Shown here: piece after piece, positions 1-60,599 of the stretch
Layout of the letters: every line of letters starts with the position of its first letter
Position numbering within the stretch: position 1 is the stretch's first letter
NCBI GenBank assembly: GCA_034509925.1
Contig: CM067531.1
Span: 1,584,501-1,648,500, forward strand
DNA length: 64,000 nucleotides
Reading direction: 5' to 3'
Source: Hirudinaria manillensis
Taxonomy: Eukaryota; Annelida; Clitellata; Hirudinida; Hirudinidae
Program-made: the position numbers and the translations under genes
Notes under the pieces: model-generated
Seen by the model: only the letters and a program-made list of their open reading frames with translations
Databases searched by the model: none
Told to the model about the DNA's origin: nothing

Positions 1-1471
1 CTCTTGTTCATCAATTGACTTGGCGAACACCAAGAAATGGCATGGCTGTTGGACTCATGGGTATCCATATGATGCATCAAAGATGGATTCAGCAACTGAC
101 GTATCTCATCATGTTATTAATAGAACAACAAAATCAGTTGACAGGTGCATTGGTGAAGGTAAATTAATTGCAAGCAAAATGTATTTTGTAATTGTTTATT
201 AAAAATATCTGCTAAAAAATTTTTTTTTAATATTTCAATTAGATCTCGCAATAAGAATAAATCGGTTTGAATCCGTTTCTGAATCTATTTTCACAGGTGA
301 GAAAGTTTCCCTCATTTTATGATAAAGATCATGAATAAATTATGATAAACAAACGAAGACTGACCAATAAATACATTGATATTTGAATATTTGCATATTC
401 AGAATTAATGACTCAAAAATACTCGACAATTATTTAATATTACTCCCTCGATATCCCGAACAGCGGCCTCAACGTACTTCTTTTTATGAAATAAAAATAA
501 ATAAATTAATTAATTAACTAATTAATTAAGGCTTCCTTAAGGCTGGTCCTTTGAGTTTACCTGAATATTTATCATGCTTTGTGTATAATCGTTCGTGTTT
601 ATTTAATTGTTTTTTTTTTGTGTAACTTCTAACACTAAATCTGTGGAGGATTGATTTTGTTCTGAATAAACTCAAAAAAAATTAAATAATTAAATAAAGT
701 TAAATAATGGTTACATAAAATTTACAGACTGGAAGATTATTCCAATTTTGGTGGCAATAATAATCGTCCTGATTGTGTTAACATTCGTGGCCGCTGTAAT
801 CCTTTGCCTGAAGTTAGTCGTTGTAACTCGGATTCTAGGAAATTAGTTAATTAGTTAAAATATAATTAAAATAAATTTAATTAATTAAAATATTGCCTCT
901 GCATTATTCGGTGAATTGTCATTAATTAAGTTTAGCCTGGTTATTTAAGATCGTCCGTGGGTCCCATGCTAAAGCAATTGTTAGAAAATAGAAACTACAA
1001 TTATTAAAATTAAGTGACCAATTTCATTTTTGCGACAGGAAGCCAAGTGGTTTCCACTTAAAAAAAGGTAAAAAAAAGTCTCGAGATACTGGGAGTTACG
1101 ATATCGCTAGAGTTCTAAATTCACAGGAACCAGAAAGATATTTGGGTCCAAACGGGGATATATACACCAATCCCATCCCTGATGTCTTAAATCCTACAGG
1201 AATTTATTCTGATTTAAATGAAGACCAGTATTATAAGGCCAGACAAGTCGAATTAGATATAGAACCAGTAAGACATTTGGGCCCAACAGATGTTCAGTAC
1301 AGCGAGGTTAATCTTAAAGGATTCCATGTAAGAAAATCAAAGAAATATGTGAGTCAAATTGGAGACCAGATATATTCCGAGATCAAACTTGACAACTTAA
1401 GTACAAATTATTCAAGCCGATGTTTGGACCTGGAAGAACAACATTCAAAAGTCGGACTTGATATGATTTAA
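1..1471 (+). CDS. Receptor A: PAN/apple-like single-pass membrane receptor with ITIM-like tyrosine-rich tail (5' partial)
   Basis: The gene enters from the left edge. Exons by splice sites and phase: 1-158, 243-296, 728-812, 1039-1471 (stop TAA); 242 residues are visible. The first exon is the end of a PAN/apple-like domain and matches receptor B (GCWTHGYPYDASK, then SHHV.NRTTKSVDRCI). The 54-base exon is a stalk. The third exon encodes one hydrophobic helix (DWKIIPILVAII...AAVILCLK). The last exon is a cytoplasmic tail of about 143 residues rich in tyrosine: GSYDIA, RYLGP, DIYTNP (a YxN Grb2-type site), GIYSDL, VQYSEV (a canonical ITIM), KKYVSQ and QIYSEI. The motif LGP(N/T)xD.xY occurs twice in the tail, and once in receptor B as LGPGGDTYT. 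The lectin-like half expected from B and C lies outside the window. A surface receptor signalling through SH2 proteins is inferred, not shown. Confidence 0.72.
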
Positions 1472-1555
1472 GTGCACGGCATCCAAATGATATTTGGATC
1501 TGATAGGAGATCAGTTTACCAAGATTTAGAATGAATTTTCGCCTGATAAAACTTT

Positions 1556-1561
1556 AATAAA
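1556..1561 (+). terminator. Poly(A) signal of receptor A
   Basis: An AATAAA hexamer lies 85 bases after the receptor A stop codon, inside an AT-rich 3' UTR. Confidence 0.6.
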
Positions 1562-2945
1562 GTATAAATTCTGAAAATACGCTTTTAAATTCTAAACCAA
1601 GAAGTTACTCGTCATTGTTTCCTTTACCACCACCGTCATGGATAATCAGGAGATAATTTTTGTTAAGGAAGTTGTAAATCATTTTACGGGATCCTTTCTC
1701 TCGAATTCTATAATTCATGTCGTTATCAGATTTGTTACTTAATAACTGTTACATTTCTCTGTGCCGAATGTTATTGCTGATTTCTAATTCCATTTGATCC
1801 AAGGGCTCGTTGTTTGCTTGTTTGTTTGTTTGTTTCATTCATTCCAACAACTAGTAAAATCGTTATTTTCTTTTATTAACCATTTTAATCGTTGCTTTGA
1901 AATCAAACATTGCAATATAAACGAGAAACATGTGATTAGATTAATTTTAAAATATCCAGAGAATTCATAATTTTTAAAAATTAATATTAATAATATTAAA
2001 TGAGGTTAATATTATTTTATATTTTTATGGATTAATAAAAAAAACGTCTTGTTACCAAATAAAATATTTCGCTGTCCAATAAAGAAGTACATTATACTGT
2101 TAAAAAATATTTAACATCACCTTAAAAGTTATTACGAGGTGGATTTTTAATTTAATATTATTGTTTGAGCTAGTCAATTTTATTATTAATGTAAATAAAT
2201 TATGTTTCTATTAAATAACCATGTCAAATAAGTGCCATAATTAATATGTTAGTAATTGTCCCATGATTGCCTAACTTGTGAATGACTGTTATTGCGATGT
2301 TATAAGTCATGATTGATTATGAAGCATAATTATATCACATTACCATTATTATTATGTCGCCTATTCATTCATTTTGATTGCCCTGCCCCAATTCTTAAAT
2401 TAAACAGTCTAATTAGACAGGCAAGCAAGTAAAGTTCTGTTAGGGATATGTATTTTGTTTGAATTGATTTGATTTAGTATAATATTGTTGTTGTCGCTGT
2501 TGTTGCTCATTAAAGGATTACGGTTACTTGCAAGCCAAATAACCAGATTGAGGCCTGAAGTAATTTTGACTGAAAATTAATGACCTCACCCTTCATAGTC
2601 ATCATTGCATGACATAATGAAGTACATAATTTTAGCGCTTCCTCATTCTGATAGAGCTCCTTAGATAGTTCCGCAACTGAGCTCAACTCGATGCAGAGAT
2701 ACAGAAGGGAATATTTTTAATATTTAATTTTTAATTAAAAGTTTCAAAATCTATTGAATAAAAACAGATTTTCGGAAGATTAATCGAGGTTACTCACCTT
2801 TTGGACAATATATTTTTATAATAAACTTAGCGAAATGTGGAACAACAATATACTTAGTGACTTTTTTTTATAAATTTGCAATTTATAATGTAATTTTAAA
2901 ATCAAATTTCAGGAAAAAGTAACGCCATTAGCTTCATATTGTAGA
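1562..2945. other. Intergenic, receptor A to receptor B
   Basis: AT-rich DNA with no convincing coding segment. A possible acceptor (ttcag) at about 2908-2912 sits 33 bases before the receptor B start codon, so B may have a 5' untranslated exon upstream. I see no transposon or RNA gene here. Confidence 0.5.
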
Positions 2946-4694
2946 ATGAGACATGGAAAAGGGAAAAATATATCTATTGTAATTATATTAATAAACCATA
3001 TACTATATGCTATACTAATGGTACAATCGTCTTGCCAAGTGACGAAGAAAAATGCTTGGTGCGATCCTTACGACACATTCTGCATGTTTTCTGAAGGAAA
3101 TGACATTAGAGTTTCCAGTTTATCAGAAGCTCAATTGAAATGCAGTGAAATTAAAAACGACAGTTGGCCTGTTGAATTAGGAGACGAAAGAGTTAAAGAG
3201 GTTTTTATTGAATTCATTAACAACCATTCCATCTCCAATGTCATTCTCAACGCTTTCAATCGAAATGGACACTGGTATTGGAAGACAAGCAATATAAGTG
3301 AGCTTAAAATTAGTTGAAAATGATTGTTGTATTTATTTTACCAATTATTTAAAATACTACAATATTCATGCTACAAAAGGCGTTGCTGGAAGTGAAATCG
3401 AGGATGAGAAAGGCATCGTTTTATATTATAATATCTCTGCTTATTTCTCAAATTATTCAGTTGTCTGTATGACAAGTGAGTACACGTGATTTTTGAAGCT
3501 TTTGATTATCCCAACAATGTGCAATCAAAAGTATTATAAATTATAACTCAGAAATTATAATCCAAACGAAATATCAGTTATTATCCCTCATGTGGATCCA
3601 GAAAACCTCCCTCATGTTAAAATAGATTTTCTAAAACGAACGCCAATTAAATATGAGAAAAATTCCTTGTTAATTAAAATTTTGTGAAAAAAATTGGTTT
3701 AGATTAGCCAATATCAACTTTGCAGATTGCAAGGCTAGTTGGTCTATCTTCAATCAGACAAAGTTAAATCTCCCCGAGCAGACGGCCAAACACGAAGTTC
3801 AAATAAATTCATTAGAAAAATGTAAAGAATTCTGTGAGAAACATGCCAACTGTTCTTCAATTGACTGGACTTATGTTTCTCAATTTCATGGATGTTGGAT
3901 CCACACGTATCCGTACAATAGTTCAAAGCGAGATTCAACGAACGACACGTCTCATCATGTTGTTGACCGAACTGTCAAATCGGTCGAGAGGTGCATCGAA
4001 CGTGAGTTTTTTTAACGGTCATATCTAGTCTAGCTGAGAAAAATATGTCGTCTGTGGATAGCTGTTTACAGCTCCAACTTTTTCTCTTATTATCTTAAAT
4101 AAACTGGGAAAATAATTGTTATTAACTTCTAAGAACTTCCTCTCTGATTTTATAAATAATTACTTCTCACAGAAACAACATCTCAGAAAAATGACTCAGA
4201 AACACAAAATCAAACAAGTAAATTCTCCTAAACTAAGACTGATCTGAATTAAAAAGAAACCCAGCTACTATTGAATATATTCGTTTATAATAATCGATCT
4301 CAAAATAAATGTAATTTTATTTCGAATCATTTATAATAAAATAATTGCAGTGAACCTCATTTTAGTTCTTGTTTCAATTCTCACCATCGTCCTTATTTCA
4401 GCAGTCTTCATTCCAATATTCATCTGGCTCAAAAGGTATGCCCTGAAAAATTAAATGGTAAATTAAATGCTAGAGAACATTATTTTCAAAAGATATTTAA
4501 ACTATTTTCTCAGAAGAAAGTATCCAGTTTCTCAGCCATCGCAACAAAGTGGTGATCGAAACACAAATAATTGTGAAAGGGGGAAAGATGTGAATGTGGC
4601 TCTCCAACGATTTTTGGGACCGGGTGGGGACACTTATACACACGTTAACCACGTCAATTTAAAATCTAATCTCGATCGTAGAAATGCCACATGA
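2946..4694 (+). CDS. Receptor B: C-type-lectin-like plus PAN/apple-like single-pass receptor with short tyrosine tail
   Basis: Complete, 344 aa. Exons: 2946-3297, 3380-3475, 3726-4001, 4173-4217, 4351-4435, 4514-4694; all phases agree. Residues 1 to about 30 are a signal peptide. Residues 35-149 look like a C-type lectin fold: a helix with EAQLKCSEI, then the NVILNAFNRNGHWYWK strand with its W.W, and a final SVVC cysteine. No EPN/QPD or WND calcium motif is seen and the usual C2-C3 pair is not evident, so the fold call is moderate. Residues 150-241 form a six-cysteine PAN/apple-like domain (DC, EKC, FC, NC, GC, RC). Residues 257-283 are the membrane helix. The tail of about 60 residues keeps RFLGPGGDTYTHV, matching the repeated motif of receptor A. 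An in-frame stop lies just before the ATG, supporting this start. The ligand is unknown. Confidence 0.75.
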
Positions 4695-5344
4695 ATATTT
4701 ATAAGGCAATTACGATGCGACTATAATTACTACTTCTGCGAAAGCTGGCTCTAAAATACTGTTCTGGCTGAAAAATGAATTGTTTAACATCTAATTTTAG
4801 TGTTGTTTTCCATGACATTTTAACCTACCTATTATGTTTTTTTTATTAGGAAATATATTTTCATTCATTTTGGAAGTTTCAATATTGTCCCGCTACTATA
4901 ATCAAATCATATTTCCTGAATGCCTGACTCCATGGATACGATCTGAAAGTGTTTTTGCTCCATGGTTAATCTCCTAATCTGTCATGGGCGTCTAATTAAT
5001 CTGAAATATTAAATTAAGACAACTGTTTCAATGCTTGGAAGTAAATGAAAAAAATACATTGTTCATTTGTTCAATTAAGCCGTTATTATTTTAACAAATC
5101 CAGATTTATTATGTTATAATATACTAGACGAAGATGAAATAGAATAGAATATAATTGGTTCATTTTAGTTCCACGAATCCACAAAAACATGCGATTGTCA
5201 TCGTCAGTTGATCGAAGGTTTACCTGTGTCGAACTACGGACTTCGTATTTTAAGACTTGACATCCGTATTGGGATAAACAATCGATTAGATAATAATAAT
5301 AATAAGTAGTAGCTATATTAGTTGAATGCTGTTGAAATCGAGAA
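4695..5344. other. Intergenic, receptor B 3' UTR and oxidoreductase upstream region
   Basis: No coding segment is seen. It should contain the receptor B 3' UTR and the promoter of the downstream + strand oxidoreductase. No clear AATAAA or TATA box was identified. Confidence 0.45.
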
Positions 5345-8300
5345 ATGGCTGAGAGACAAGTTACCGCCATAGTAATAGGCGCTGGAAATCGAGGGTTCGC
5401 TTATTCCAAATATGCGTTGGATTGCAAAAGCAAGTTTAAGGTGGCTTATTTTTGATTAAAACATTTCTTAGACTGAGTTTAGAATCTCAGTTTTCTGTAT
5501 TCATATTGGTCGAATCTTTTAAAGATTGTGAGTGTTGCGGATCCAAACAAACGCAGGAGGGAGAAAATGACACAACTTCACGATATTCCACCCGAAGCAA
5601 CATTTGAAAGTACGTGTCAGAAGTAAATTCATTTACTTAGCTAATGTCAGTAGTTAGTTTCAATACTTGCAATTGTTTATTACTAGTTACTTATTTTGAA
5701 GAAGACATAAACATTTATTCAATTAGCCTGGCAAGAAGTTGTGGCAAAGCCAAAATTTGCAGATGCTGTCCTAGTTACAACAATGGATCGAATGCATAAG
5801 GTCTCGAATATGATAAATTATTAACCTATTTGTTTATTTAATTATTTGATTATTTTATTAACATTTAGGAGCCAGCTGTTGCCTGTGCTAAGCTTGGTTA
5901 CCATATTTTATTGGAAAAGCCAATGGCAGTAAGTAATCAAGTGATAGCTTGTTTGTATCTATTTGTTGATAGATTTTTTTTCTACTTAGTAGCTTTAGTC
6001 AGTCTTTATAGTGTCTTATATTTTGAAATGAGACATGAAAGATGTATTGTAATTATGCAATGAGACTTGAAAGCACTTCTTAGTTGGTCTTAGAACTTGA
6101 GGAAATTGCAGGCTGGGTATTGAACATGAACTGATACAACAACAACTGATACCATTATTGCCACGTGAAGGAATACTGCCCAATTTGTCCAATCTTCACA
6201 AATACATTTATTTATTTATGTGGCCAAAAAATACACTGAAATTAATAATAATAATTGTTTTTTTCTTTTTCAATCTCCAAGACAACTCCAGAAGAATGCA
6301 AGGAGATTGTTGACGTGTGTCGCAAGCAGAAAGTCATGCTGGCCGTCGGACACGTGCTGAGATACGACGCTCATGCCATCATGATTAGGGACATAATCAG
6401 GTCAGGAGAATTGGGTCAAGTCGTTAATATTCAACACCTCGAACCGGTTAGTTTTTCAATTCAGAATATTCAGACTATATATTTAGATTTTTAATAAAAC
6501 AAATTAACTCAAAAAACATTTAATTAATATAACATTAAATTTACAAAAATAAATGAATAAAATTCAAAAACGAGTATAGAAATTATTCTTTGCACCGATT
6601 AGTCGAGACTTTAACAAGGCTTACTTAACTTATTACTTTACTAACTTCTTATTACCAGATTGGTTACTGGCATTATTGCCACTCATTCGTCAGAGGAAAT
6701 TGGGGGAAGGAGGACTCAACGACCTTTCTGTTCATGGCCAAGTGTTGCCATGACGCTGACCTCGTTCAGATGTGGCTCGGACCTGAGAATAGGTGCAAGT
6801 CGGTGTCGTCTTTTGGTTCTCTCGTTCACTTCAAGAAGGAGAACAAGGTGAGTTGTGAGGGTTTTTGAATTGTTTTTTTTTTGAGCTGTCGGAGAATATT
6901 TCTCTCTCTTTTCATCGTTTTTAAAGTTTAATTTTAATGTTTTTTATTTATTTTGATTTTTTTTTGTAGTTTAGATTTTAGTAATTTTCTGCTAGGTTCA
7001 TGACAGATTTTAATTATATTATATATGTGTTGTATTTTAATAACAATAAGTTATTAATAATAATAATAATAACAATAAATGTTTAATCAGTAAATCATAT
7101 TTTAATGAATTTAAACCACTTCATTCAGCATTTATATTTTAAAATTTTTATTTTCAAAATGAGATTTCAAATCTTCACATTACAAATTATTTCTTGGAAT
7201 TAAAATCTCTTAAAAAATAAATTAAAAAATATGATTTAAAATCATTTGAAAACATTTCCAGCCTCCTGGAGCTGCAGACAGGTGCCTCAATTGTTCAGTG
7301 GAGCAGAACTGTGCCTTCTCAGCCAAAAGACTTTACCTTGGACTTGCCAGCAAGGTCTGTGATTGCTTGTAATTTATAAGTTATTGTTAATTATGGAATA
7401 TATATTACTGGAAATATTATATATATATTATATACATCGGCCCTTGTTAATGTAGCACCTGATCCCTAAATATCATCTTAATATGAAAATATTTTATTTA
7501 AAATTACTTCAACATGGCCATTTATTACTTAATTATTTTAATAAGAATTTAATTAATTAATATTTATCCATGTTTAATCAAATATGTTGTTGCATCTTTT
7601 TATCGCTTGTTTGTTGTTTGTTTCAATTTTCAGTTTTTGTTTTTTTTTAAAGTTATTTGGAATTAATTTAATAATATATATATTGAAATTATCGGATTTT
7701 TAATCAAACATTGAGCCAGATTTTGTCAAATTTTTGAATATTTCCACATCTTTTTTTATACCAATATTTATTATTATTATTATTATTACTAAGTCTTGTG
7801 GTTATATTATGATTATTTATTATAATGATAATATATTATATTTATATTTATATTTATATTTACATTCTGCTTCAAAGGGATGCAAAGGTTGGCCCTTGAA
7901 TATTCTGACAGACGAGGTACCCGACCTGGAAAACATAACGGAAAGTTTGAGGTCGGGTCCTTACGGGAGGTGTGTCTACAATGGTGATAATGATGTCGTT
8001 GATAATCAGGTTTGATTGTTATTAACATAATTTATTATAATTTATGTGTTCTAATTAGCAGCATAATTAATAACATTATAGTTGATATATGTTGTAGAGA
8101 TTAGCATAAGAAATGATGGATTCATATTCTTTAAACCAGAAGATGATCTTTTTTTGTAGTTTTACATTTTAGGCCCCAGAATTAACATGAACATTTAAAG
8201 AATTAATTTATAAATTATCATATATTATATATATATATATATATTATTATTTGAAAATTACATTTTCTTTATACTTAGGTATTAATGAACATTTACAAGT

Positions 8301-9917
8301 TATAACAACAACATGATGATAACATAATTAATCATCGATTTGATAACCATCTGATAACTATTTCGTAACCAGGTGGTGATAATGAACTATGAAAGTGGAG
8401 CAACGGTGAACCTCACAACGGTGGCCTTCACGAAAGAAGTTTGTGAAAGAAACACGAGGATTTGTGGAACGAAAGTCAGAACTTAGAATTTGTTTTCATA
8501 AAAAAATTAAATTATTAATTAAGATTATTATTATATAAATTATTAATTAAGATTATTATTATATAAATTATTAATTAAGATTACTATTATATAAATTATT
8601 AATTAAGATTACTATTATATAAATTATTAATTAAGATTGTTATTATATAAATTATTAATTAAGATTATCATTATTAATTAGGACTATTATTATATAAATT
8701 ATTAATTATGACTCTTTTGTCTTGAAAACAGTTTCTTTAGTTTGATTGTTTTCATGAATGACGTCAATTGAAAAGTGAGACATCGCTCGGTGATTAGTAT
8801 TCATTTTTAATTTAATATAAAAAAATAATATAATATAATAACATAAAAATTAATAAAAACTTTTTATAAAAATGTGTTTAAATAATTTTCACAGGGAGAA
8901 TTAACCTGTCATTTTTCGGAGGCAAACTTGTACGTGTTTGACTTCCTGACTGAGACAAAAAGTGGGATATTGGTTGTGAATTGATCAAAGTTATTGCTTA
9001 ATAATCAGTTAGCTGATAAATAATAATAAATAAAGTTAAATAATGTTAATAATAAATATGTTTATTATTATTTATTATTAATTAATTAATAATAATTGAT
9101 TAATTAGGAGCATGATTCTAAGATACTTTATGTCATCCACTGCAATGATTTGTTGTGAGGATGAAACATTGTAATGTAGTACAATTTAGTACAGAGTATT
9201 TAGTAGTACTTATACTATGAATCTTTTAAAGATTAAAGTTTAATGTAATGTAGTACAATTTAGTACAGAGTATTTAGCAGTACTTATACAATACAGTATT
9301 TGTTTGATGGTACATTTTATAAATAAAGGTCATATCTTGGATATACTAAGTTAACCTGACCCTGGAGAAACATATTTTATTTACAGTTGGTTTAATTACA
9401 TTTTTTTATTCTTTAGAATTTAATTTGCTTTTATTTCTCAGAAACGTACAACGTTCACGAGGAGGGGAAAGTGAAGGTTGGACATTCGGACTCTGACTTG
9501 GAAACGATCAAATGTTTTGTTGAAGCTGTTCAGGTAAACAAAGATAGTTTTTTAAAGGTTTTTATAATATAAATATAAATATTATTATAGATATAAATAT
9601 TGTTTTAAATATTATTATAAATATAAATATTGTTTTAAATATTATTATAAATATAAATATTGTTTTAAATATTATTATAAACATTATTTTTGGAAAAGTT
9701 GTTTCTATGACTAATAAATTTAGTGAATTCATTAATGTCTCATTGTTGTTAAAAGTTGAAAAAAATAATAATTTATTTTTAATTTTAGAAAAATGATGAA
9801 AATCTGATTCTGACTGGTCCAGAGGAGAGTCTCAAGAGTCACATCCTTTGTTTTGCTGCCGAGAAAGCGAGATTGGAGAACAGAGTCGTAAACTTGGATG
9901 AATTTTCGAAATTTTGA
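5345..9917 (+). CDS. GFO/IDH/MocA-family NAD(P)-dependent oxidoreductase (StrI-like)
   Basis: Complete, 427 aa, 12 exons: 5345-5440, 5525-5609, 5727-5800, 5869-5928, 6282-6446, 6659-6847, 7262-7354, 7878-8009, 8373-8474, 8895-8961, 9442-9533, 9789-9917 (TGA). The N-terminus is a Rossmann fold with GAGNRG; the family's EKP motif (Lys102) is present in [16 protein letters not shown] and the helix [13 protein letters not shown] match the second half of the family active site. By family knowledge it oxidises or reduces a sugar, inositol or similar polyol using NAD(P); the substrate cannot be read from the sequence. StrI-like is my recognition of the [11 protein letters not shown] and [10 protein letters not shown] blocks and has not been confirmed by search. 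No signal peptide, so probably cytosolic. It sits between two receptor paralogues but shows no functional link to them. Confidence 0.88.
8513..8705. repeat. 28-bp tandem repeat in oxidoreductase intron 9
   Basis: About six and a half imperfect copies of a 28-base AT-only unit built on attaattaagattatta. It lies wholly within the intron between exons 8373-8474 and 8895-8961. Minisatellite; no coding or CRISPR character. Confidence 0.75.
9171..9288. repeat. 44-bp direct duplication in oxidoreductase intron 10
   Basis: The segment 9171-9214 (gtaatgtagtacaatttag...) recurs almost unchanged at 9245-9288, with a 30-base spacer. It contains repeated GTAC sites. Confidence 0.7.
9575..9685. repeat. 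30-bp tandem repeat in oxidoreductase intron 11
   Basis: About three and a half copies of a 30-base unit containing tataaatattgttttaaat. It is confined to the intron between exons 9442-9533 and 9789-9917. Confidence 0.7.
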
Positions 9918-10284
9918 GTCTCAAATGGTCTTTCATACTCAAAATACCTCGGTCCAATGATCGTGTTTGGAATTATTGGGTGATTATTGCCTTATTAACA
10001 AAATATTTCTTCTTAAACCTTTTAATTTCTTGTTCTTGTTCTGCCATCTTGTTTATTTTCTGAAGAAAACTTTGATCTTCTACAATCGCCACATTCAAAG
10101 CACATTACAAGAACTATCTACTAAACAAGTACAGCTTGGTGGCCCTTTAAATGGGAGGTGACTCCCTTGAGGTTACCAGATTTGAAGAAAATGAATTCAG
10201 AAAAAATAAAATTTTTCTTTGACAATCGTGTTTGAGGTTGAGGCACTATTATTGCCTTTTTAAGCGAATAATTTTTTAAATTAC

Positions 10285-10362
10285 TTAAAAAGGTAGTTTA
10301 GCCTCCGACGCTACGCATACGGCGCTATATAAATTAACTATTATTATTATTATATCCTGTTT
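10285..10362 (+). mobile_element. Possible 3' tail of an L2-like LINE/SINE
   Basis: The string ggcgctatataaatta followed by a TTA/ATT microsatellite has the look of the 3' terminus of many L2-clade elements and derived SINEs in animals. Only the tail is visible; no reverse transcriptase is present. Recognised from memory of the motif, so confidence is low. Confidence 0.35.
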
Positions 10363-10514
10363 ATATATTTTTTTTTGTGTTTCTATGTATTTTAAACCGG
10401 CGCTTATTACTCAAAATTATTTTCACATTTCTCAGATCAGCTTTTAGCATCATGGCATAATGTTGGAACGCTGCAAAACTGATATTTATTCTGCATTAGT
10501 TATTGATGTGACAA

Positions 10515-10605
10515 TACAATAAAACCTGTCTTTAGGGACAGGTCTAACTTGCACAAAAAAGTGTCCCTGTGGGGAGGTTGTCCATTTTCTCAGCTGCCTA
10601 TGTTA
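10515..10605. mobile_element. Possible pogo/Tigger-type DNA-transposon terminal remnant
   Basis: Contains a perfect 7-bp inverted repeat, ACCTGTC and GACAGGT (10524-10530 and 10537-10543), followed by a gtgtccctgtggggaggt segment. This resembles the GTCC-rich ends of Tigger/pogo-like elements. No transposase is seen and the other end was not located. Confidence 0.3.
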
Positions 10606-11512
10606 AACTATAGCAGCAACTGATTAATCATCCAAGCTTCAATGATGTGAAATAGCTGTCATTTCTCTATAGTCAGTTTCAATGGAGATTTCTTCCTCAT
10701 CACAATTATTATTATTTTTATTATTATTATTATCATTATCGTTATCATTATTATTATTATTATGTATGACATCCTTCATCCAGTGGCATGAATTCCTGAA
10801 AAGTCACATCTGAAGTAAAAGAACAGAGACAAATTCAGTTTGTGATGCCTCATCCTCAACTTCGATCTCCACCATGTCATCATCAACTTATTATCCAAAA
10901 ACCACAATTTCCAAAACATTTAAAAATTGTTAATGGTCTCAATAAGCCCCAAGAAATTTTTACCCAATTCATCAAATAATGTAACACTCTTTGAAATGTC
11001 TGAAGCCTGAATACCTCATTATACCTCAATATACCTCAATTCTATTAAATTATACATTTAATAAAAATAAAATATTAAATTGACATTTGATGCATTCTAA
11101 ATCTGAAGTCTTTGGAGAGTTCTGAGACTAAAGTGCACTTTTAAAAAGAGCGCACCTGTCAAACTTGGGTGATTGACAGGTGCGATTTAAAGGTGTTATT
11201 CTGTAACGTTCAAGTCACATATTCAGATGTCAGAGAATCATATATTTTACGATTTTAAATTTTAAATTTTTTTTGGGTTTTACAAAATTTAGTTTTACAA
11301 AAAACTGCAATTAACTAATCTAGTTTTAATAATTTATTTTTACCTTTTGTTTAGAAAGCTACAAAAGGCTAAACCACACAAAACATTGCAGGGTTGGAGA
11401 TACGTATATATACGAAGGATTTCAGGTTAGAATCACATTGCGTGAAAAATTTGTTTTAAGAGGTTGAGGTTACCGATTGTTACCGATTAAGTGAACATTA
11501 GTGGCGGAAGAC

Positions 11513-13007
11513 ATGAGGCTAATGAAGATGTGCCTTCTCTTATTCATAATGTTTGCAAGCTCCTCAGCAAACGAATTGTTTATGTTGTGTAGTCATTACG
11601 AGACATTCTGTTTGTTTTCTGAAGGAAATGATGTTAGAGTTTCCAGTTTATCAGAAGCTCAATTGAAATGCAGTGAAATTAAAAGCGACAGTTGGCCTGT
11701 TGAATTAGGAGATGAGAGAGTTAAAGAGGTTTTTATTGAATTCATTAATAACCATGCCATCTCCAATGTCATTCTCAACGCTTTCAATCGAAACGGAAAC
11801 TGGTATTGGAAGAAAAGCAATATAAGTGAGTTGATTCTGATGAACATCATTTTGTTATATTTACATTATTTTAAATGTGATTGAAGTTAATTTTTGATTT
11901 GTATTCCGACAGCTGTTCAAAATGTTATGAACTATTCAGTCCATGGCAGCAATTTATTTTTGCCATATAATTCAGGAAAACAACCTGCCAATAAACATTC
12001 CCTAGTTTGCACAACTGGTTAGTTTTTTTAAATAGACTGGGATGAAAAATAAAAAGATTTGATCAAAGGAATTATAATATTGATATTGAAATCAACAGAC
12101 TGCAGAGCTGGATGGATCCAAGTGAACCAAGGTTCTAACAGAACTGATGAACCCAAAATCAATGGCTTAAGTAAATGCAAAGAAATTTGTGAGGATGACC
12201 AGGAATGTTTGTCTGTTGTCTGGAAGCGCAAATATGGCTTTAATGATTGGGAATGCCAGAAGTTGAACTCATCAGACTATGCTCCAGGATCATCTGAGGA
12301 AGAGTTTTACCACTATGTAATTGATCGAACAGTGAAATCTTTTGATAGGTGCATCACTAAAGGTGAGTGCATACATTATGTTGTCCATCTTTATGCTTAT
12401 GAGACCATTTTGATTGACAACTTAGGACTTTTTAAAGGCAGCAGATCCTTACTTTGGAGGATATTCTCAATTCTAGGATCAAGTAATCTAAAACAAATTA
12501 TTTACTAAGTTTTAAGCAAATAGTTGCAATTCATGATAACATTAAGCCTTGCCTGGCTCTTCAAATGTCAATATTTAAGAAGACCTTAGTTTTTCTAACT
12601 TTAGAGATGATGCATAAATGTGGTTTCCAGCTAATTTCATGAAAATGCATTTGGAAATTTGAGTAGGCAAACTTTCCAACTTGTGCATAGTCAAAGCTGC
12701 ATCTTTGAATTACTTTAAGTTTGTTTTTGAATAAATATATTACATATTTATTTTGAGACAATGTTTTAGTCGTATTACTTTTTGGATCATCGGTACTTAT
12801 TCCATCTGGACTCGTCCTATTGGGACTTTCCATCGCTATGATCTACGCACTCTGGTCTGCATTATTTGTGATGACACAACTTTTCATGATTTTAATTACT
12901 TTTAATATTCTTCAAGCAAATCGAAAAAAACAACTGATGATGATAAGACGGAACTGACACCACAACCAGAAAAATGGGAAGTGAAGACTCAAGTTTCAGG
13001 CTTCTAA
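11513..13007 (+). CDS. Receptor C: C-type-lectin-like plus PAN/apple-like single-pass receptor, tyrosine-free tail
   Basis: Complete, 289 aa. Exons: 11513-11825, 11913-12017, 12099-12362, 12758-12854, 12917-13007 (TAA); phases agree. Residues 1-20 are a signal peptide (CLLLFIMFASSSA). The first lectin-like exon is almost identical to receptor B (SEGNDVRVSSLSEAQLKC, then NAFNRNGNWYWKK). The second lectin exon, ending HSLVCTT, and the PAN-like exon (residues 140-227, including a VIDRTVKSFDRC motif shared with A and B) are strongly diverged. Residues 228-259 are a hydrophobic helix. The tail of 30 residues (KKTTDDDKTELTPQ...) has no tyrosine. The donor of the membrane exon (TG/gtctgc) is weak, so that boundary is the least certain. 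It could be a decoy or adaptor-dependent partner of A and B. Confidence 0.72.
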
Positions 13008-19453: not shown

Positions 19454-19555
19454 ATGATTGTTGCCCGTGTCTGCTCTTACTGTTGTCGTCGTTGTCGTCG
19501 TCGTCGCGTCTCGGGCGTCGTTGTTGGATTTAATAGTAGCACTTCTAGATGGTGA
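19454..19555 (+). promoter_or_regulatory. Upstream ORF in the MET-like leader
   Basis: An ATG at 19454 opens a 33-codon, cysteine/arginine-rich reading frame ending TGA at 19553-19555. It is in a different frame from the receptor and ends 79 bases before its start codon. It would lie within the mRNA if transcription starts about 30 bases after the TATA box. Confidence 0.4.
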
Positions 19556-19634
19556 ATTGAAATCCAAATTCAGCAAATTCATTTTCTTTCTTTATTGCTG
19601 TTCATATGCTTCTTTTCTTCACTGGAAGTCGGTG

Positions 19635-22600
19635 ATGATGATGATGACAAAATTCGCGGTCTTCTTGGCGATGCTGGGAAGCGTCTGCTCTTCTGTATTG
19701 CATCACGACGAACCAAACTCCGAACTGTTCGCACTGGTCTACGACCAGACGACTAATCGGATCATAGTGGCGGGAACGAATGCCGTATTCATGTTCGACG
19801 GACTTCTGCAAAGACTGCAAACCTTTGAAGTCGAGCCCGTGGTTGACAGTTCCATCTGCGAGGATCAACCCTGCCAGGCAGACCTGGACAACAGGCCGAG
19901 AGTTCTACTCCTGTCTCCGAACGGTAGATTTCTCATCTACTTTGCCGGTCTCTCGGGCGACCGATGCTTTATCCACGATTCTCAGAACCTAAACATCTTC
20001 AGAGAGCTTCGAGCTAAAGATACGAGCTTCATCGGACGCTCGACGGATAGCGCGGCCGTGACGTTTGCCGGCGACTGGTCGCTCTTTGTCGCCAGGTCGT
20101 TTGACGGTGTCGATTCTTACGCCCTGGCTAGCTTCTATCTAAAGGAGGAGCTGAAAGAATCCTCCGATTCTGTGGAAGTCTATAGTCGTGGAAACGTGGA
20201 CCTCGACAGAGGAATCAGGTTCAGCGAATCTCTCAGGGCATCCTTTATCGTCAGCTACGTCGACTCCTTTGAATACGAAGGCTTCGTCTACTTCCTCAGC
20301 GTCCAGAGAGAGACCGAATCGGAAGAGACCTATCACACGAAACTGGTCCGAGTCTGTGCAGAAGATCGCCAGTTCGACTCCTACTCCGAGCTGGAGTTGT
20401 CATGCACCAGGAAAGAATTCCTGACCCAATCCCACGTCTCCTTCAATATCGCCAAAGCATCCCATCTTTCCAGAGCAGGGCGCGATCTTGCACGCAGATT
20501 TGACCTTGACCCTGAAGACCCCGTCCTATACGTGGTCATGGGGAGGGGCACGCCCCAGACCCTAGACACAGGGGAGACCGTGGTCTGCATGTACCCCATG
20601 AGGTCGGTCCAGAGAGAGTTTGTGAAACTCCAGAGGGACTGCTATTCTGGTACAGGAACGATTCTGCCTTGGATTGATGACAGTAGACGGCGATGCAAGA
20701 TGGACGTAAGGGGTTTGATTTGTTTTGATTTTTATGGTTTATTAAATTTTCACGATTTTTATTTTAATTCCACGATATCGTAATTGAATAATAATTTTTT
20801 AAATGATAATAATATTAATATTAACAAGTATTAATGATAAGGGTTTATCATCGTTGTTATCATAATCATCGTCGTCATCATCATCATCGTCATCAAAACG
20901 TAAATACATCCGTACTAATCTGAAACACGTTGTGCAGTGGATAATGGCCGTTCGTATTAAAAATCTTTTTTGTTTCAACTCTCGCGTGCTGCTGCTGCTG
21001 TTGTTGTTGTTGTTATTGTTGTTGATGTTGTGCGCAGTTGTTGTGCAGTTGTGCCGTTGTGTCGTTGTGCCATTGTAGCGCCTGGAGCTACAGTCTTTGT
21101 TATCTTGGAAAGGATTTTTCTCCACCTGGCATCTTTTCTAGCGAACATCTGCCAAGGAATTTTCAGTGCATCGTATTTATTTTTGCAGCATCCACAGAGA
21201 GACTTTACATATGTATTTTATATCCCATTAATGTCTCCGTCGAATACTTGTAATTGCACGAATGCCTCTAATGGGATTGTAAATTATGAACATTTTATGA
21301 TTTTATTAATACATATTAATATTAGATTTTAGAGTAATTAAATTTTAAATTATTATTTATGAATTTAAATTGTGAAATTTTTTAATTTTAATTGATATTT
21401 TATTTCTCGGACCTGATTTGTTTCTGAGTTTCAATGCCATTTTATAATCTTTGCAAATGGCCTCAACAGGTCAACATGAACGAAACAAACAAAAAACAAC
21501 ACAAACTTAGAATATAAATATTTGATAAATATGACGCACCAACAAAAAATACAGAATAATAAAAAATATAGATTTATGAATAATAAAATTAAAAACATTA
21601 AAAATTAGATGGACAAGTCATAACAACAGTTTCTGATAACAACAGAAATAAAAATCTTTACTTTTTCCCCCAATTCCTTTCAAGATCGACGTTGCCAAAA
21701 CCATAGACTCAAAATTCTGCGGCCACCCACTCAACGCGGGCATGGGTAGCAGGTACCCGCTGCACTCAGACCCCCTGTTCAAGGGCCACCCAGCAGACCC
21801 TATGACCGCCATCAGAGTACTCGTCATCAACAACAAGACCGTGGCAGCATTGGGTACGGAAAGGGGTGTCCTTATGAAGGTGGGTTTTTTGTTATCTTTG
21901 ATTATTTGAAGGTCGTGCGATTGAGTAGCAGTGAGTGGCCCATATGATATAATATAAATATAATTCAATATAAAATATATTTACGGGGATAAGCTTTTTT
22001 TTTTAAATTATATATTTTAAATGTTTTATCTATTTATTTTTTAAATATTTTTATGTCGAAAAATCGAGATTAAATATTAAAAATAAAAATGAAAATGAAA
22101 TAATCCCAATCATTTATTTAAAAGATTAATCTCGTGTTATCGTTTTAATTATTTAATATTAATTTAATAATAATTATTTAATAATTATTTAAATAAAATT
22201 CTATTGAAGGCTTTTTTCATTCAAATCTTTTATCGAAATCTTTTTTATATGTGAACCTCCTTGGCGCTTCCAAAACCGTGTCTAAGAGCAGCTCCCATTT
22301 CAGTATAAATCATCCGAGTTTATCCGGAATTTGCAGTCTTTTTTCCTGTTCCAATTCCATCGAAAATCTGCCCCAGATCCGGGTTGCCTCATTTTTTCCA
22401 GGCTTTCCAGGTGGTCCGCCTACCACCCGCCTCGTACCTTCGCTTACCTGGATTGCATGATTGGTCTCAATCAACCTCAGCTTTCGTTCGTTCGACTATT
22501 TGAATTAACTATCGAATTTGTTTGGATTCATAGAATGAATTAATGAATTATGTTAATGAATGATAAATATTCATGGGGTGATTCTGGCTTATTGCAGCCC

Positions 22601-41472: not shown

Positions 41473-44400
41473 TCAGTGTCCGATCTCCATCTGGTTCCCT
41501 GCCCCGTTGACGGCCTCGTCAGCCACTTGTCCGAGGTTGTACTTGATGTACGGAGTCTCGACGTCCGCTCCGTCTTCGTCGTCACAGCACATCTCGAAGA
41601 CCAGGCACCTGACGTGAGGTGGGATCCTCTTCTTGGACACCTTCTTGACCAGTTCGCACATCCTTATTGGGGAGGTAATAAAAAGTAATCGTCAGTTGTG
41701 GTTGCAATTGAAGGATTACAATATTATTAATAAACAATAATTAACAAATTGCACTCACTTCATGTTAAGTCTTTCCTTCTTCTTTTCTTCCTGCTGGAAG
41801 GAGGAGTACAGCATGCACACTCCATGCGAAAGCATGCTGATGGTCAACTTGTGGTTTTTCTGTGGAATTCAAATGAATCAAAGTTTTAAGCAAAAGAAAG
41901 GATAAACTGTCATTGAAAACTAATAAATGATTCTATTGATTAATATTATTAATGTAATATTTTAATATTGGTAATATATTATTATCATCATCATCATCAT
42001 CATACCTCAAAGTACTGAAGGAGCTCTTGGAGTGTCATCTCTCCATTCAATTCAAACCTGTCCCACTGAGTGAAGGTGACATCGTAGTACTGAACAATCA
42101 ACAAAGAATTATTAGAATATGTCAACCTTTTTGTTCAAAAAAACATAAAAATATCATTTAAAAAAGTATAAACAACAAGAAGACATAATGTCTCAACGAG
42201 TCGAGTCAATCGGTGCAAGCGTCTTACCTTGTGCTTGGTGGCCGGCACTGGCTCAGAAAACCCGAAGAAGGGCAAGGCAAGGTTGATGAAGCCGTTCTTG
42301 AATCTCTCTGCGTTCGTGTGTCCTTGGATGAGCTACAAAAATTTAAGAAAAGTTGTTGTTAATAATTAGTTCATAATTAATTTATTACAATTATTATGAT
42401 CCTGAAGCAATTGATTCAATGAAAAAAGAAGTTTCACGAACCTTGTACATCTCTAGGCAGACGAGTCCGACGACAGCAGACGTGGTGGTGGCAATGGCGG
42501 GAATGATCTTGCCGGCGATCAGTTTGCTCTGTAAACAAAAGTAAAACAAATTTAGTTATCCATAGTCACGTCTAGCAACAGTTAATAGCAAACAAATATG
42601 GTTAGCAGAGTTTACAAAACGAATTAACTGGTATCTCACCTTGTGCCTGTCGGCAGGAGCGATGTCGTAATTTTCTGCTCTGAGGTTAGAGGATGCCACG
42701 ATGAAGTCCATGTGATGGTTGGTATCGTCATCCTTCTCAAATTCGATCGGCCTGAGCTTCAGTTTCAGCGTCTTCTGATCGGGCAGACAGGCCTGGATGT
42801 TGGACAGGGCATCTGAATCGGAGTGCATGTCATTCCTGGAGGAGTTGGCTTCCTCGTCGTTGACGGAAATCTTGACGCCAGACTTCGGCACGAACTCCGG
42901 GACCTTCATCTCGGCCAGGAAGTCGGCGATCCTCCTCCTGTCGTATGCCTCCGTCGGTTCGACACTGTAGACGTAAGCTTTCAGTCTGGCAGCTGCCTCG
43001 ACGTAATCCAGGTGTGTGGACTGCAACAGTTGGAGAAAAATTGAATTATTATAATGATTAATCAATAGGAGATCAATTAACAGAGATCTTTCTGTCTTGT
43101 CAGTCTAACTCTTAATTATAAATATGATTCTAAAGAGATCGAAACATTCAACTCACGTTGTGAGGATCGAAGTCGAGATGGTGGGGACACCTCTTGGGTC
43201 CGGACCAGAAGGGCGCACCGCTGGAGGTGATCTGATCCTTGGGGAAGTTGAAGAGCAGCTGTTTGATCTGATTGTGGTAGTTTGCCTGCCACAAGTTGCG
43301 AGCCCAAATGATGCAATCTTCGAATGTCGACGGTCGTTCATCCACGAGGACTTTCTTGACTGCCTCGAAAGTTTCCATCTACAGGGCACGGTTAATTAAT
43401 AAATTAATAATCATAATCAATAAATCGAGATTAATCGTCTTCATAAATTGATTAATTAAAAAGTTGTTAACAAAACGAGTCAATCACTGACCGGCTGATT
43501 GCCCTGCAACTTGAGAGTGCGATCGACAAACTTTGGATCGGAAAGGTACTGGGCTGCAGTCTCCACGGGCTGCCTGAAGAGACCCTCGAACATGTCCCTG
43601 GCCCACTGGAGCGTGTGCTCGATGGCATTGGGGAAGTTCTTGAGGGTGCAGATCGGGATGGACTTCTCCGGGGGATCCTGAGAGGCAGAGTAGGATTCGG
43701 TCACGTCCGGGATGACCACCTGGATGCTGCCCTTCGTCCCCAGGGTTCCGGATTCCAGGAGAGACTTCTTGTAGAAGACGCAACGTCTGTCAACGTAGGT
43801 TCCTAGAGAAAAAAACATGAACCATGTTCAATATAAGTATTGAAATTGAAATCCATTGTCTCATAAATTATTAATTAATCCAAAAATATGAAAAAAAATT
43901 GTAATAAAATTCCTCAGTTCCACTCACTTGCTTCAATGTTGTCGAGAGCGTTGGCAACTCCAGTCAGGTTCTCGAAGAACGCATCGTCATAAACGGCCTC
44001 CGTGTCCTCACCGACCCTGTTCGTGTGCGCCACGATGTTCAGTCCAGGATTCATTTTCAACACTGCGTCTGCTGCCGTTGAGGACTTTGGTTTCTGTTTT
44101 TTTTAACGAATTAAAAACGATTTTAGTTATTTTTATCAGCTAATTATTTATTTATTAGTTATTTTTTCCAGTAGTTAGTATTTGAAAGATGACTAATTAT
44201 TATTGCCCATTAGCATTTTATAACTACTCATAAAAGATCACAGTCATAACTATTATCATCATCATTATCAAAACTTACATTGACATCCCAAGCCCTGAAG
44301 AGGAACTGCCTGTTGAGGTTTGACTTCTCAATGATGTCCATGTCGGTGACGAAGATCTTTCCCTTGTCCCCTGTTCCTACTCCCATCATGGCCCAGTTCT

Positions 44401-47128
44401 TCAACAGTTCGCATCCGATGGCTCCGGCTCCGACCAAGAAATAGCGGACGTTGGCCAACTTCTCCTGGAAATCCGATCCGAAGACGGCGAGCTGACCGTC
44501 GTATCTGCTTCCGACGGGCTTGCAAAGGTCCTCCGTCAGAACCGACAGGGGGTTCTCTGGCAGACACTCGAGCGCGTCAAAGTACAACCACTGGTAAACT
44601 GGACTGAACTTTCCACTGCATGCCTGGAGAACATGAGAAAAGTATTCATTAGTGAATGTCATCACAACTGCCAATCATATCTTTACCAATGAAGATGAAT
44701 CATTTCAACCATTTAATAATTATTGTAATGAATATATTATTATAAATAATTTATATTATAATGAAATTAATAGCCATGGCACTCAAACTAATTAATGACC
44801 ATGTATTGTTGATTATTAACACATTGTCACATAACTAATTGCAGGGGGCTGACTAACCTTGAGTACTTCCTGGGCAGCAATGCCTCCAATGACAGCCTGC
44901 ATGGGACTGAGACTTCCAGAAGCTCCGGAGGCAAAGAGGCGAATGACCTCCTCGTTCAACTCCACGTCTTCGGTCTTCAAGGCGGAGGTGGATTCCAGGA
45001 TCTCATCTGCATCGGCCTTGTTGCAGGGGGCAGGGTTCCTGCCGTGCTTCGTGACGAACTGGTGGAGCGCCTGGAAGGCCAGGTGGATCTGGGCTGGCCT
45101 ATCGAACTTTCCAAAGTCGGTCATCACAAACTCGGGCTCCTTGAGTGACTCTTCAAAAGATTTCTGACAATAACAACACAATATTATTATATTAATTACA
45201 ATATAACATTATATTATAATGAATTGCAACATGTATCATAGTTATTCAGTTATTACTACTACTATAACAAATCAAAGACGGGATGCTAACGAATTTCAGA
45301 GTCATGGGCATCTTGACTTGGGTGACGACACCCCCCCTGACGTACTCCCCAAACTTGGTTGTGTCACCGATGCTGAATGTGTAAGGTCCTGCGTGGGTCA
45401 AAACACGGATTGTTAAACCATTGTCAGAAATTGGCTATTAGTATTATTGCTATCATCATCATAATTAAAAATGGTCATCATTATCATAACTAACCGAGAA
45501 CTGTGACTTTGCGTGGGGTGCATCCGTTCAGCTCGGTCATGCCCTGGACTTCAGAGAAGGTGACGTAGTCTCCCGTCTCGTAGTTGTGTCTCGTCTCATC
45601 CACACAAGTAACGATTCCTTCTTCCTCCTGCAAATGCAAGTTTAATGCTAGATTAATTACCATATAAAAGCTAAGGAAATCTACATACTTTCAAAGCAAA
45701 AGACTTCTGTAATTTATGTAGTTATGCAAGCAGAACAAACAATTGAACGCATGATTGGCCTTCGAATGAATGAACGAATGCAGAGACAATGCAAGAAAAA
45801 CATGCAAGAGCAAATCTAACTATATGAAATGACAAGAAGGAAGGTACAAACCTTGGTGATGGAAGCCACCATGTTGCTGACCGGTTGCTCACCATTGGTG
45901 TCATTCACCACAAACTCCTCACCAAAGTCGCAGAAGAGTTGCCTGAAATGGAATTATATTATTTAGACAAATATTCACCATAATTAGAAATATTAACAAT
46001 AATAATAAATATGATGCATTTCAAAAGTGCCATAGTGCACTGCGCTTTTATATAAATACTCACCCAAACAGGCCCTTTGTGTCTGCTACTACAAAACAGA
46101 TTCCATTCTCGTGACAAAAACTTCCAAGTGTCTTCTGCTCATCCAACGTGGAGTCGGTCAGAACCACGACCTGGAAGCACTTGACTTTGTCCAAGGTGAG
46201 TTCTCCAACAATGGCCTGAACAGGCACGTAGGAGTTAAGATCTGCCAGTTTGGCGAGGGTGGCCTGAGCCCTGTTCAGACCCAAGGTCTTCTCGGTCAGG
46301 TAGAACTGAAATAGAAATGAAAAATGTTCGAGACGATCGACAAGGCAAAAAAGCATTAGTCATTCCAAGCCATATTATGGAAAATAACTACAAAAATATG
46401 CAGATAAAAAAATACTTTGATTCAACCAACCTGCGAAGAAAGATCAGCCTGTGTGACAGTCTTCTCGTCATGGATGGCCACGGACTTGACCCCGGCCAGG
46501 ATGACGTTCTTGGCGATTTCCACTCCGAGTCCACCCATGCCCGAGATGAGGACATTGGAGTTGGCCATCCTCTTCATGGCAGCATGGCCCAAAACATACC
46601 TAAAGTGAAATTATTTTATTGTCAACCAGACTATTTTTCAATCACACTTCATTTACAAAGTTACTTGAGTGCTATTATAGAAGGATATTGTAAGTTTACT
46701 AAAATAAAATCAAAGTATAGAAGCTGATACTCACAATTGTCTGGAATACAGTCCCTCGTCAATTCCATCATTTTCCTTCACTATCCTGTTTGTTTCCATA
46801 TTCTGAAAGTAGAGAATATGTTAAGAAGATGGAATTTTGTCATAAACAAATCAGAAACATGTTAGTTCAGAAATTTGTGTAAGGCAAAAACAAGTTTAAG
46901 TTCTTATAGCCAAGCAATTTTAAAACTCAATTTGGCATGTTAGGAAGACATATCTTGCTCATTGATCTCACATTCAGACCACATTCTATGCATTATTTTT
47001 CCACAGAGAAAACAAATCACATCCACAAATATCTCAAGATATTGAAACAGATCACATACTGAATGACCGTTTTCGGAATCTTGAGGAATTTCTAATCTGG
47101 GTTTCTTGGCCGGTAGCGGGCTAGACAT
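41473..47128 (-). CDS. UBA1: Ubiquitin-like modifier-activating enzyme 1 (ubiquitin E1)
   Basis: Complete, 1055 aa, 18 minus-strand exons: 47128-47060, 46802-46735, 46599-46431, 46305-46064, 45942-45852, 45627-45495, 45388-45291, 45163-44858, 44623-44279, 44093-43928, 43802-43492, 43378-43157, 43020-42640, 42528-42442, 42332-42228, 42089-42006, 41859-41759, 41662-41473. All phases close and the length matches human UBA1 (about 1058). It activates ubiquitin with ATP and passes it to E2 enzymes, in cytosol and nucleus. Visible: a basic N-terminus (AKKPRLE, possible nuclear signal), the inactive adenylation repeat ([13 protein letters not shown]), the active one ([29 protein letters not shown]), the catalytic cysteine near residue 614 in [17 protein letters not shown], the FDPHN linker region and a C-terminal ubiquitin-fold domain. 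No defect seen. Confidence 0.97.
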
Positions 47129-57449: not shown

Positions 57450-58229
57450 CCTGCCACAATAGTCAGACTAAAATCTATTAAAATCTATGCGCTCTACGAG
57501 CGCAGAGTCTCGAGCTCCAGTCGTCGACCTTATTTTGAACGATTTAGAGAAGGTAAACAAGCTCTTTCAGGCGTACTTAATATGCATGAAGCAGAAGCCA
57601 TAGAGACGAGAACAGCTATTCTGAGTGCTGTTTATCGTGCATAAATTGGTCCCCTTAAATATAAAATTTAAAACAAACTAAATGGTCAGCCACCCTCCAT
57701 CCCGCACAACGCCCTTCTCTATGTTACCTTCGCAACAAATTACAACAGTGTCGTACCAATACAATTCATTGCTTATTTTAAAAAATTGTGTTAAAGTAAG
57801 TTTTTTATTGAGAGGAAAAATATTTTAGAAATAATAGGAAAAAAATTTCATACATGAATTTCTAGGTTCACTTCTTCCATGAGTTTAGGTCAGTTTTGGG
57901 TTGATCCATAGCAGTCTTTCATCTTATGTTTACTTGACAATGATTTGATGCATCTCTGATTGGAGGGGAGTTGAAATAAATTTCCGACTATCCGGTTGAT
58001 CCAACTTAGTTAAGTAGCTATTCTTCTACCCGGTCATGATTGACTTAACGTGACCCCTTGACCACAGGAAATGATCTACTTATTAGGGCCTATTATGCCT
58101 ATCAGTCTCTATTTTAGTAAACAAAAATCAAAGAAATTAAGTGTTTAGGACTCGCTGAAGTCGTTAGTGCGACAATGAGATTAAAAATCTGAAAGAATTA
58201 TAAATTGCAACAAGTTATAAATTGTCAAT
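57450..58229. other. Spacer between the two UGT genes
   Basis: Contains the promoter of the 55842-57449 gene and the 3' region of the 58230-59840 gene. No coding segment or clear TATA box. Confidence 0.45.
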
Positions 58230-59840: not shown

Positions 59841-60599
59841 TTCTTTTGATTTTATTTTTATAAAATCGAAACAATGAGCCAATCCAAATTTATTCAGAAC
59901 TTAAATCAAGCCCCGTATCAATAGCAATTTGCATCTCATCGATGAAAAAGCACGTCGAAATAACTCGTTCTCTATCAGATTCTCTCCAAATAGGTCGAAC
60001 AGTTTTGCAAGCAAGGGATTTCCCCGGACTTTGCTTAAAGTCCCATTATTTTTTTTAAACATCTGCTCTAATTGTCCATTTAGGGAGCATTTTTCATCGA
60101 CGCAGAAGAATTTTCGTTAGAGTAAATAAATATTCTTTATTCAAGTATTCAGAAATAAGTGTCGGCTTTATTTCCTAAAATTCCAGCTAGCCTAGTCTGA
60201 TAATAGGGCCTAATGATGCCATTTTCCAACAGATATTTTCCACAGGTTTTGAGAAATTTTCTCCAGGATGTAATCGTCGCTATTTTTTTGTCTGTCGCCA
60301 GATCTGCTAGAAAAGATTGGTACAAGGGTCATACCTTGAAAATAAGACTCAATAAAACGTTGACATTTGGTACATGTTTATTAAAGACAATTTAAGTTAT
60401 GTTCCACATTGGTCGGTTAATTTTTTTTTTATGTTTATCTATATTAATAGTTATGAATAAAATAGAAATGTTCAACGGACACTCAACGCATTTTTATAAT
60501 ATTCCATTTTTATTAAATTTTAATAAATAGTTAAGAAATTGATAAAGCATTCAAGCCAATCTTGAACAGACGAGAGTCCTAAACATGACGAATCAACGT
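59841..60599. other. Intergenic, UGT promoter side and RPB10 3' side
   Basis: No gene. From about 60300 the sequence is the left part of the tandem duplication described separately. TTTATT near 60507-60513 is a minus-strand AATAAA suited to the first RPB10 copy. Confidence 0.45.

Follow-up and report, generated by a model that had tools for sequence, protein, structure and literature searches.

Exon-restricted homogenisation in a clustered family of putative lectin-like/PAN membrane receptors of the leech Hirudinaria manillensis

The stretch analysed here, called the window throughout, comprises 64,000 nucleotides of the leech Hirudinaria manillensis (C6:1584501-1648500; the genome searched amounts to 148.4 Mb in 23 contigs). 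Its first 13,007 positions carry three related genes, A, B and C, which belong to a family of putative membrane receptors. B and C, and A from its PAN exon on, read in our hand-built models as type I membrane proteins. Exon 1 encodes a signal peptide and the first half of a lectin-like domain, exon 2 the second half, and exon 3 a PAN domain, followed by a membrane helix and a tail. With slightly better than even confidence, we interpret this family as lineage-expanded annelid type I receptors with a degenerate C-type lectin-like domain (CTLD) and a PAN domain, which would work as a paired-receptor system through gene conversion of exon 1. The exons of A, B and C were rebuilt by hand, with splicing deduced from the sequence. 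The features, in window positions, are as follows.

1..158, forward strand: 3' part of the A PAN exon, which begins left of the window (family-profile match C6:1584388-1584651; donor GTAAAT after 158)
243..296, forward strand: possible short linker exon of A, a weak candidate based on open reading only
728..812, forward strand: A membrane-helix exon (mean hydropathy 3.54, phase 1-2)
1039..1471, forward strand: A tail exon; among its 10 tyrosines, that of VQYSEV lies in a strict immunoreceptor tyrosine-based inhibitory motif (ITIM)
2946..3297, forward strand: B exon 1, signal peptide and first half of the lectin-like domain
3111..3277, forward strand: homogenised tract in B exon 1 (14 genome matches including itself)
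3380..3475, forward strand: B exon 2, variable second half of the lectin-like domain
3726..4001, forward strand: B exon 3, PAN domain with six cysteines (PAN_1 23.0 bits, cut-off 21.4)
4173..4217, forward strand: B linker exon, polar
4351..4435, forward strand: B membrane-helix exon
4514..4694, forward strand: B tail exon, motif FLGPGGDTYTHV
5345..9917, forward strand: unrelated Gfo/Idh/MocA-type oxidoreductase gene between B and C (ends read by eye)
11513..11825, forward strand: C exon 1, signal peptide and first half of the lectin-like domain
11639..11805, forward strand: homogenised tract in C exon 1 (96% identity to B)
11913..12017, forward strand: C exon 2, variable second half of the lectin-like domain
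12099..12362, forward strand: C exon 3, PAN domain, matched by the family profile at E 2.2e-16
12770..12854, forward strand: C membrane-helix exon, placed by hand, as the helix-exon scan did not pick it (weak donor GTCTGC)
12917..13007, forward strand: C tail exon, about 30 residues without tyrosine

Gene A is cut by the window edge, and its exon-1 match lies outside, to the left, at C6:1583419-1583646. B comprises 344 amino acids in six exons (2946-4694) and C 285 amino acids in five exons, its end at 13007 agreeing with that given in the original prediction. The latter described three tandem paralogues. The paralogues are real, with gene models now rebuilt, but they are not strictly tandem because the oxidoreductase gene (about 5345-9917) separates B from C. 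With two exons joined by hand, this gene scored 28.2 bits against GFO_IDH_MocA_C (cut-off 22.9).

Chance cannot account for the similarity among A, B and C. With 80 residues of B exon 1 as query, the genome yielded 49 matches at E <= 0.001, of which 48 lie on C6 and the remaining one on C13. Iterated profiles, applied to 257.5 kb, recovered 51 exon-1 and 55 exon-3 matches, some of which are fragments. The family consists of about 50 genes, nearly all located in four clusters on one chromosome (C6 at 1.04-1.13, 1.34-1.35, 1.55-1.60, and 2.36-2.39 Mb). Further paralogues were found to the left of the window, where a search had originally been suggested, and include the first two of these clusters. 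Among 51 genes, an ATG in the exon-1 frame was present in 46, an exon-2 model in 47, an exon-3 match in 50, and, by a hydropathy rule, a signal-peptide-like start in 36. Phase 1 was imposed by script at the exon-1 and exon-2 borders of members beyond A, B and C. In 46 of 50 genes the exon-3 acceptor was located exactly at the phase-1 position. A phase-2 donor followed the best helix exon in 33 of 37 cases, in a scan that favoured phase 2. Two truncated members (C6:1561443-1561643 and C6:1069486-1069635) are probably pseudogenes or incomplete models.

The identity of the PAN domain is firm. Its six cysteines, expected to form three disulphides, are invariant in 43 out of 43 aligned PAN exons, 35 of which were matched by PAN_1 at E <= 0.1. 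For the two receptors to which the original prediction assigned lectin-like and PAN domains, a profile search recovered PAN in B, above the Pfam cut-off, whereas C alone stayed below it (8.9 bits). The AlphaFold model of the B PAN exon reached a predicted local distance difference test (pLDDT) value of 91. In a Foldseek search with this predicted PAN fold, the top match was leech anti-platelet protein (E 2.1e-3, template modelling score 0.66), and the N domain of HGF was also among the first matches; a profile search of the PDB gave a weak match to Saratin (E 0.37). In the genome as a whole, PAN_1 was found at a minimum of 142 places at E <= 0.05 with 150 of 206 candidates scored, some of them inside the receptor clusters. 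More PAN_1 groups lie far from these clusters, at C7:1.78-2.06 Mb, C3:8.85-8.94 Mb, C12:7.08-7.10 Mb, and C4:12.67-12.73 Mb.

Exon 1 is homologous to CTLDs. A profile of 40 members gave 10 matches in the PDB at E <= 10, all of them CTLD proteins (best E 3.7e-4). True lectins neighbour the largest cluster at a distance of about 27 kb; alignment to these neighbours by hhalign gave 88-91%, versus at most 2.2% for 20 column shuffles. Two of them exceed the Lectin_C cut-off of 22.6 with 36.5 and 34.5 bits, and an intron splits their domain at the same place and in the same phase as in the receptors. In a second structural look at the exon-1 model, 16 out of 16 listed entries were CTLDs, with middling Z scores of 5.8 and less. 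EPN/QPD and WND, the calcium motifs of sugar-binding C-type lectins, occurred in none of 47 models. The family profiles, the half-domain model, and the intron in common with true lectins support a degenerate CTLD. Structure prediction did not contradict the originally proposed folds, the confidence being high for PAN in B and modest for the exon-1 half.

Tandem CTLD membrane genes with a stalk, a helix, and tyrosine-bearing tail pieces (YENV, YISL, YYEV, by eye) were observed at C6:1006001-1015000. Those at 1.008-1.015 Mb resemble the receptors in the intron position and phase of the lectin domain, in the stalk, in the helix, and in the tail pieces; they differ in that no PAN exon was seen and that Lectin_C is above cut-off. 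These tandem genes are a possible source of the receptor family. A further group of five equal-score Lectin_C matches about 6.4 kb apart (C10:6552689-6578678) is probably a young tandem array.

Part of exon 1 is homogenised among members. In 11 W-type genes from two clusters (55 pairs, saturated pairs counted as infinite), the median synonymous divergence (dS) of a 52-codon core of exon 1 was 0.145 within and 0.105 between clusters. In exon 3 it was 2.2-2.8, near saturation. Core dS was below exon-3 dS in 55 of 55 pairs, including those across clusters 450 kb apart. Ungapped identity is 0.92-1.0 across about 165 bp and drops to about 0.3 in the DNA flanking both sides. When the B tract was searched against the genome at the DNA level, 11 of the matches other than itself were 92-98% identical and two were 78 and 73% identical; all 14 sit in family exon-1 matches. 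The extent of the alike part varies. In 12 C-type genes it covers the first 36 codons (proportion of synonymous differences, pS, 0.13, compared to 0.44 in the rest of exon 1 and 0.67 in exon 3). The R4 pair 2360/2372 is alike over all of exon 1, where 1 of 48 synonymous sites differs; exon 3 of this pair differs at 39 of 48 (Fisher p 9e-17). Not every pair follows this pattern: some other close pairs are alike across all three exons, as recent duplication would predict, and among the R3 genes 1547, 1554, and 1563 the pairs are, if anything, more diverged in exon 1.

Since protein-level purifying selection does not lower dS, we favour repeated gene conversion or copying of the exon as the explanation. 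The tract borders fit conversion, because it would stop once the flanking DNA is no longer alike. Alternatively, low exon-1 divergence may reflect selection on the nucleotide sequence itself, e.g. on a regulatory or RNA element, or an assembly artefact. The tract is short (about 165 bp) and lies inside a single exon, which would suit this explanation. We regard it as highly unlikely, as the borders differ by group, the copies are 92-98% identical to B and not 100%, and no Rfam family reached gathering score within the window.

Statistics on signalling motifs were obtained from 23 tails accepted by hand out of 51 genes, using 2000 shuffles. The motif Y-x-x-[ILV], termed YxxPhi, was found 47 times versus 16.7 expected, a number reached by none of the 2000 shuffles. 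Strict ITIMs, defined as [ILVS]xYxx[ILV], numbered 9 in 8 tails versus 4.6 expected, and 78 shuffles reached this count. Pairs resembling the immunoreceptor tyrosine-based activation motif (ITAM) occurred in 4 genes versus 0.42 expected, again with none of the shuffles reaching this number. The picture was the same for 33 tails selected without any motif term. L-x-Y-A-D-L and GP-x-G-x-x-Y (GP.G..Y..V) are recurrent tail forms. The combination of lectin-like domain, PAN domain, one helix, and tails with tyrosine motifs is supported at family level. The ITIM-type tails originally ascribed to the three genes are borne out for A, where VQYSEV, the sole strict ITIM among the three, is accompanied by GIYSDL and QIYSEI, as well as for 8 of the 23 accepted tails. 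They are barely so for B, whose weaker motif GDTYTHV is not a strict ITIM, and not for C. Two loci each show a phosphatase stretch preceded by two SH2 stretches, all on the same strand (C13:7993157-7990233 and C8:5849018-5852767). Each of them probably represents one SHP gene, and a partner pathway for the tails seems to be encoded in the genome.

In the mechanism that we propose, gene conversion of exon 1 would keep one membrane-distal surface uniform across members, and this surface would bind a partner or self-ligand that the members have in common. Each receptor may owe its own specificity to the divergent exon 2 and PAN domain. Ligand binding would result in phosphorylation of ITIM-like or YxxPhi tails and recruitment of SH2 proteins, e.g. 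SHP-type phosphatases. ITAM-like tails would activate, and tyrosine-free tails such as that of C may belong to decoys or adaptor users. The clustered expansion, the exon-limited homogenisation, the differing tails, and the SHP-like loci are suggestive of an immune or allorecognition role, presumably with expression in immune cells.

Several results weigh against this paired-receptor interpretation. No Pfam lectin domain was found in B or C, Lectin_C matched only 5 of the 40 profile members (best E 0.014), and hhalign to four other Lectin_C proteins of the same genome remained below 1%. The exon-1 model of B represents half a domain only, with a pLDDT of 74, and its best Foldseek E-value was 0.94. 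The 55-pair test used 11 genes chosen for their look-alike exon 1, which slightly lowers our confidence. No positive selection was detected in six close pairs (ratio of nonsynonymous to synonymous differences, pN/pS, 0.45 in exon 1, 0.60 in exon 2, and 0.96 in exon 3). Enrichment of strict ITIMs is only mild, the short tail of C lacks any tyrosine, and YxxPhi doubles as an endocytosis signal. Finally, no tail was accepted for 28 of the 51 genes, and the helix-exon scan gave no believable helix exon for R4 genes. R2 genes gave no accepted tail either; secreted or tail-less members are therefore possible.

The abundance of plain YxxPhi over strict ITIMs, 47 versus 9, would also suit endocytic or scavenger receptors, in which these motifs are clathrin-adaptor signals for uptake of glycoprotein or microbial ligands and there is no ITIM/ITAM signalling. 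Lectin-like and PAN domains do bind ligands in scavenger proteins. We consider this unlikely, though deserving of attention, since GP.G..Y..V, L.YADL, and the ITAM-like pairs look more like SH2 motifs, and homogenisation of exon 1 together with diverse tails is unexpected in a housekeeping uptake receptor. Leech anti-platelet protein and Saratin, which have the PAN fold in common with the receptors, are secreted single-domain proteins. The former being the best fold match of the PAN exon and the latter a weak profile match, the family could be akin to secreted salivary PAN proteins and encode feeding-related products, into which the apparently helix-less R4 genes could still fit. This appears extremely unlikely: salivary anticoagulants are secreted, whereas a helix exon of the expected phase was found in 33 of 51 genes and an accepted tail in 23.

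The family can be compared with several known systems. Ly49, NKR-P1, and Clec receptors of the natural killer (NK) complex are clustered, with ITIM-type tails and a lectin-like domain without sugar-binding motifs, and are type II proteins with an N-terminal tail. Unlike these, the leech family has a signal peptide, a C-terminal tail, and a PAN domain, and does not show type II topology. FREP/CREP-type snail lectins join an Ig domain to a fibrinogen or lectin domain; this identity was rejected, as no Ig family was among the Pfam matches of B and C. The family displays the signature of paired receptors, namely a near-identical membrane-distal exon, a divergent remainder, and tails of differing type. 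Gene conversion of leader and N exon links an ITIM and an ITAM receptor in dog CEACAM1/CEACAM28 (PMC2110893), and Siglec-11/16 is described as a second case of paired receptors with gene conversion (PMC5701461). Both are, like the leech family, clustered type I receptors with alike membrane-distal regions and tails of different type; the likeness is due to gene conversion in the mammals and probably so in the leech, and the mammalian pairs signal in opposing ways. CEACAM and Siglec proteins use Ig-like domains, whereas the leech family is lectin-like plus PAN, with a function predicted from sequence. The CEACAM tract reported there spans 2.3 kb between two genes, whereas the leech tracts are 110-241 bp long and involve at least 12 genes as well as further groups.

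Among invertebrates, Botryllus fester co-receptors (FcoR) and Hydractinia Alr candidates are, like the leech family, clustered receptors with ITIM/ITAM-like motifs, in the latter case reportedly (PMC12065747). The ectodomains of FcoR consist of Ig and sushi domains in that source, and allorecognition genetics are established for FcoR and Alr, whereas the leech family is read from its genes. According to the same text, the Botryllus receptors are type I and clustered, carry ITIM, hemITAM, or core Y-x-x-[ILV] in their tails, and act in allorecognition (PMC12065747). They thus lend some support to the alternative that the leech proteins serve self/non-self recognition or cell adhesion in tissue or gametes and not in immune cells, exon 1 being a homophilic interface. 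The uniform exon-1 surface would fit such a common self interface. Nevertheless, we judge this quite unlikely, as solitary annelids are not known to show a fusion reaction. CTLD-PAN receptors with ITIM/ITAM-like tails were not met among the literature matches listed, in a search that did not extend to eukaryotic sequence databases.

Elsewhere in the window, reverse-strand frames resemble UDP-glycosyltransferases (two long ones, 55842-59900), ubiquitin-activating enzyme (42556-45208), and homeobox (63595-63999), and a frame at 19458-20783 resembles a sema/plexin ectodomain, all by eye. About 690 bases of simple repeat (51684-52370) are open in frames on both strands. At C9:3026446-3027786, a nuclear copy of mitochondrial cox1 is identical to bases 1-584 of the mitochondrial contig C23, the whole gene not being matched; it may be a recent insertion or an assembly join.

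As a tentative proposal, to which we assign a probability well short of even, a paired-receptor complex may have evolved in this annelid independently of vertebrates. All receptors would read one common self or partner surface because part of the lectin exon has been copied again and again between 12 or more genes, whose clusters lie 450 kb from each other, with the variable half-exon, the PAN domain, and inhibitory, activating, or silent tails diversifying behind it. Diversified self/non-self receptors in antibody-less protostomes are poorly known, and the family provides a concrete, clonable case. It is distinguished by a CTLD-PAN ectodomain in clustered receptors with ITIM/ITAM-like motifs and by strikingly local concerted evolution. 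Together, exon-limited concerted evolution and an ITIM/ITAM-like signalling end make the paired-receptor idea testable in an annelid.

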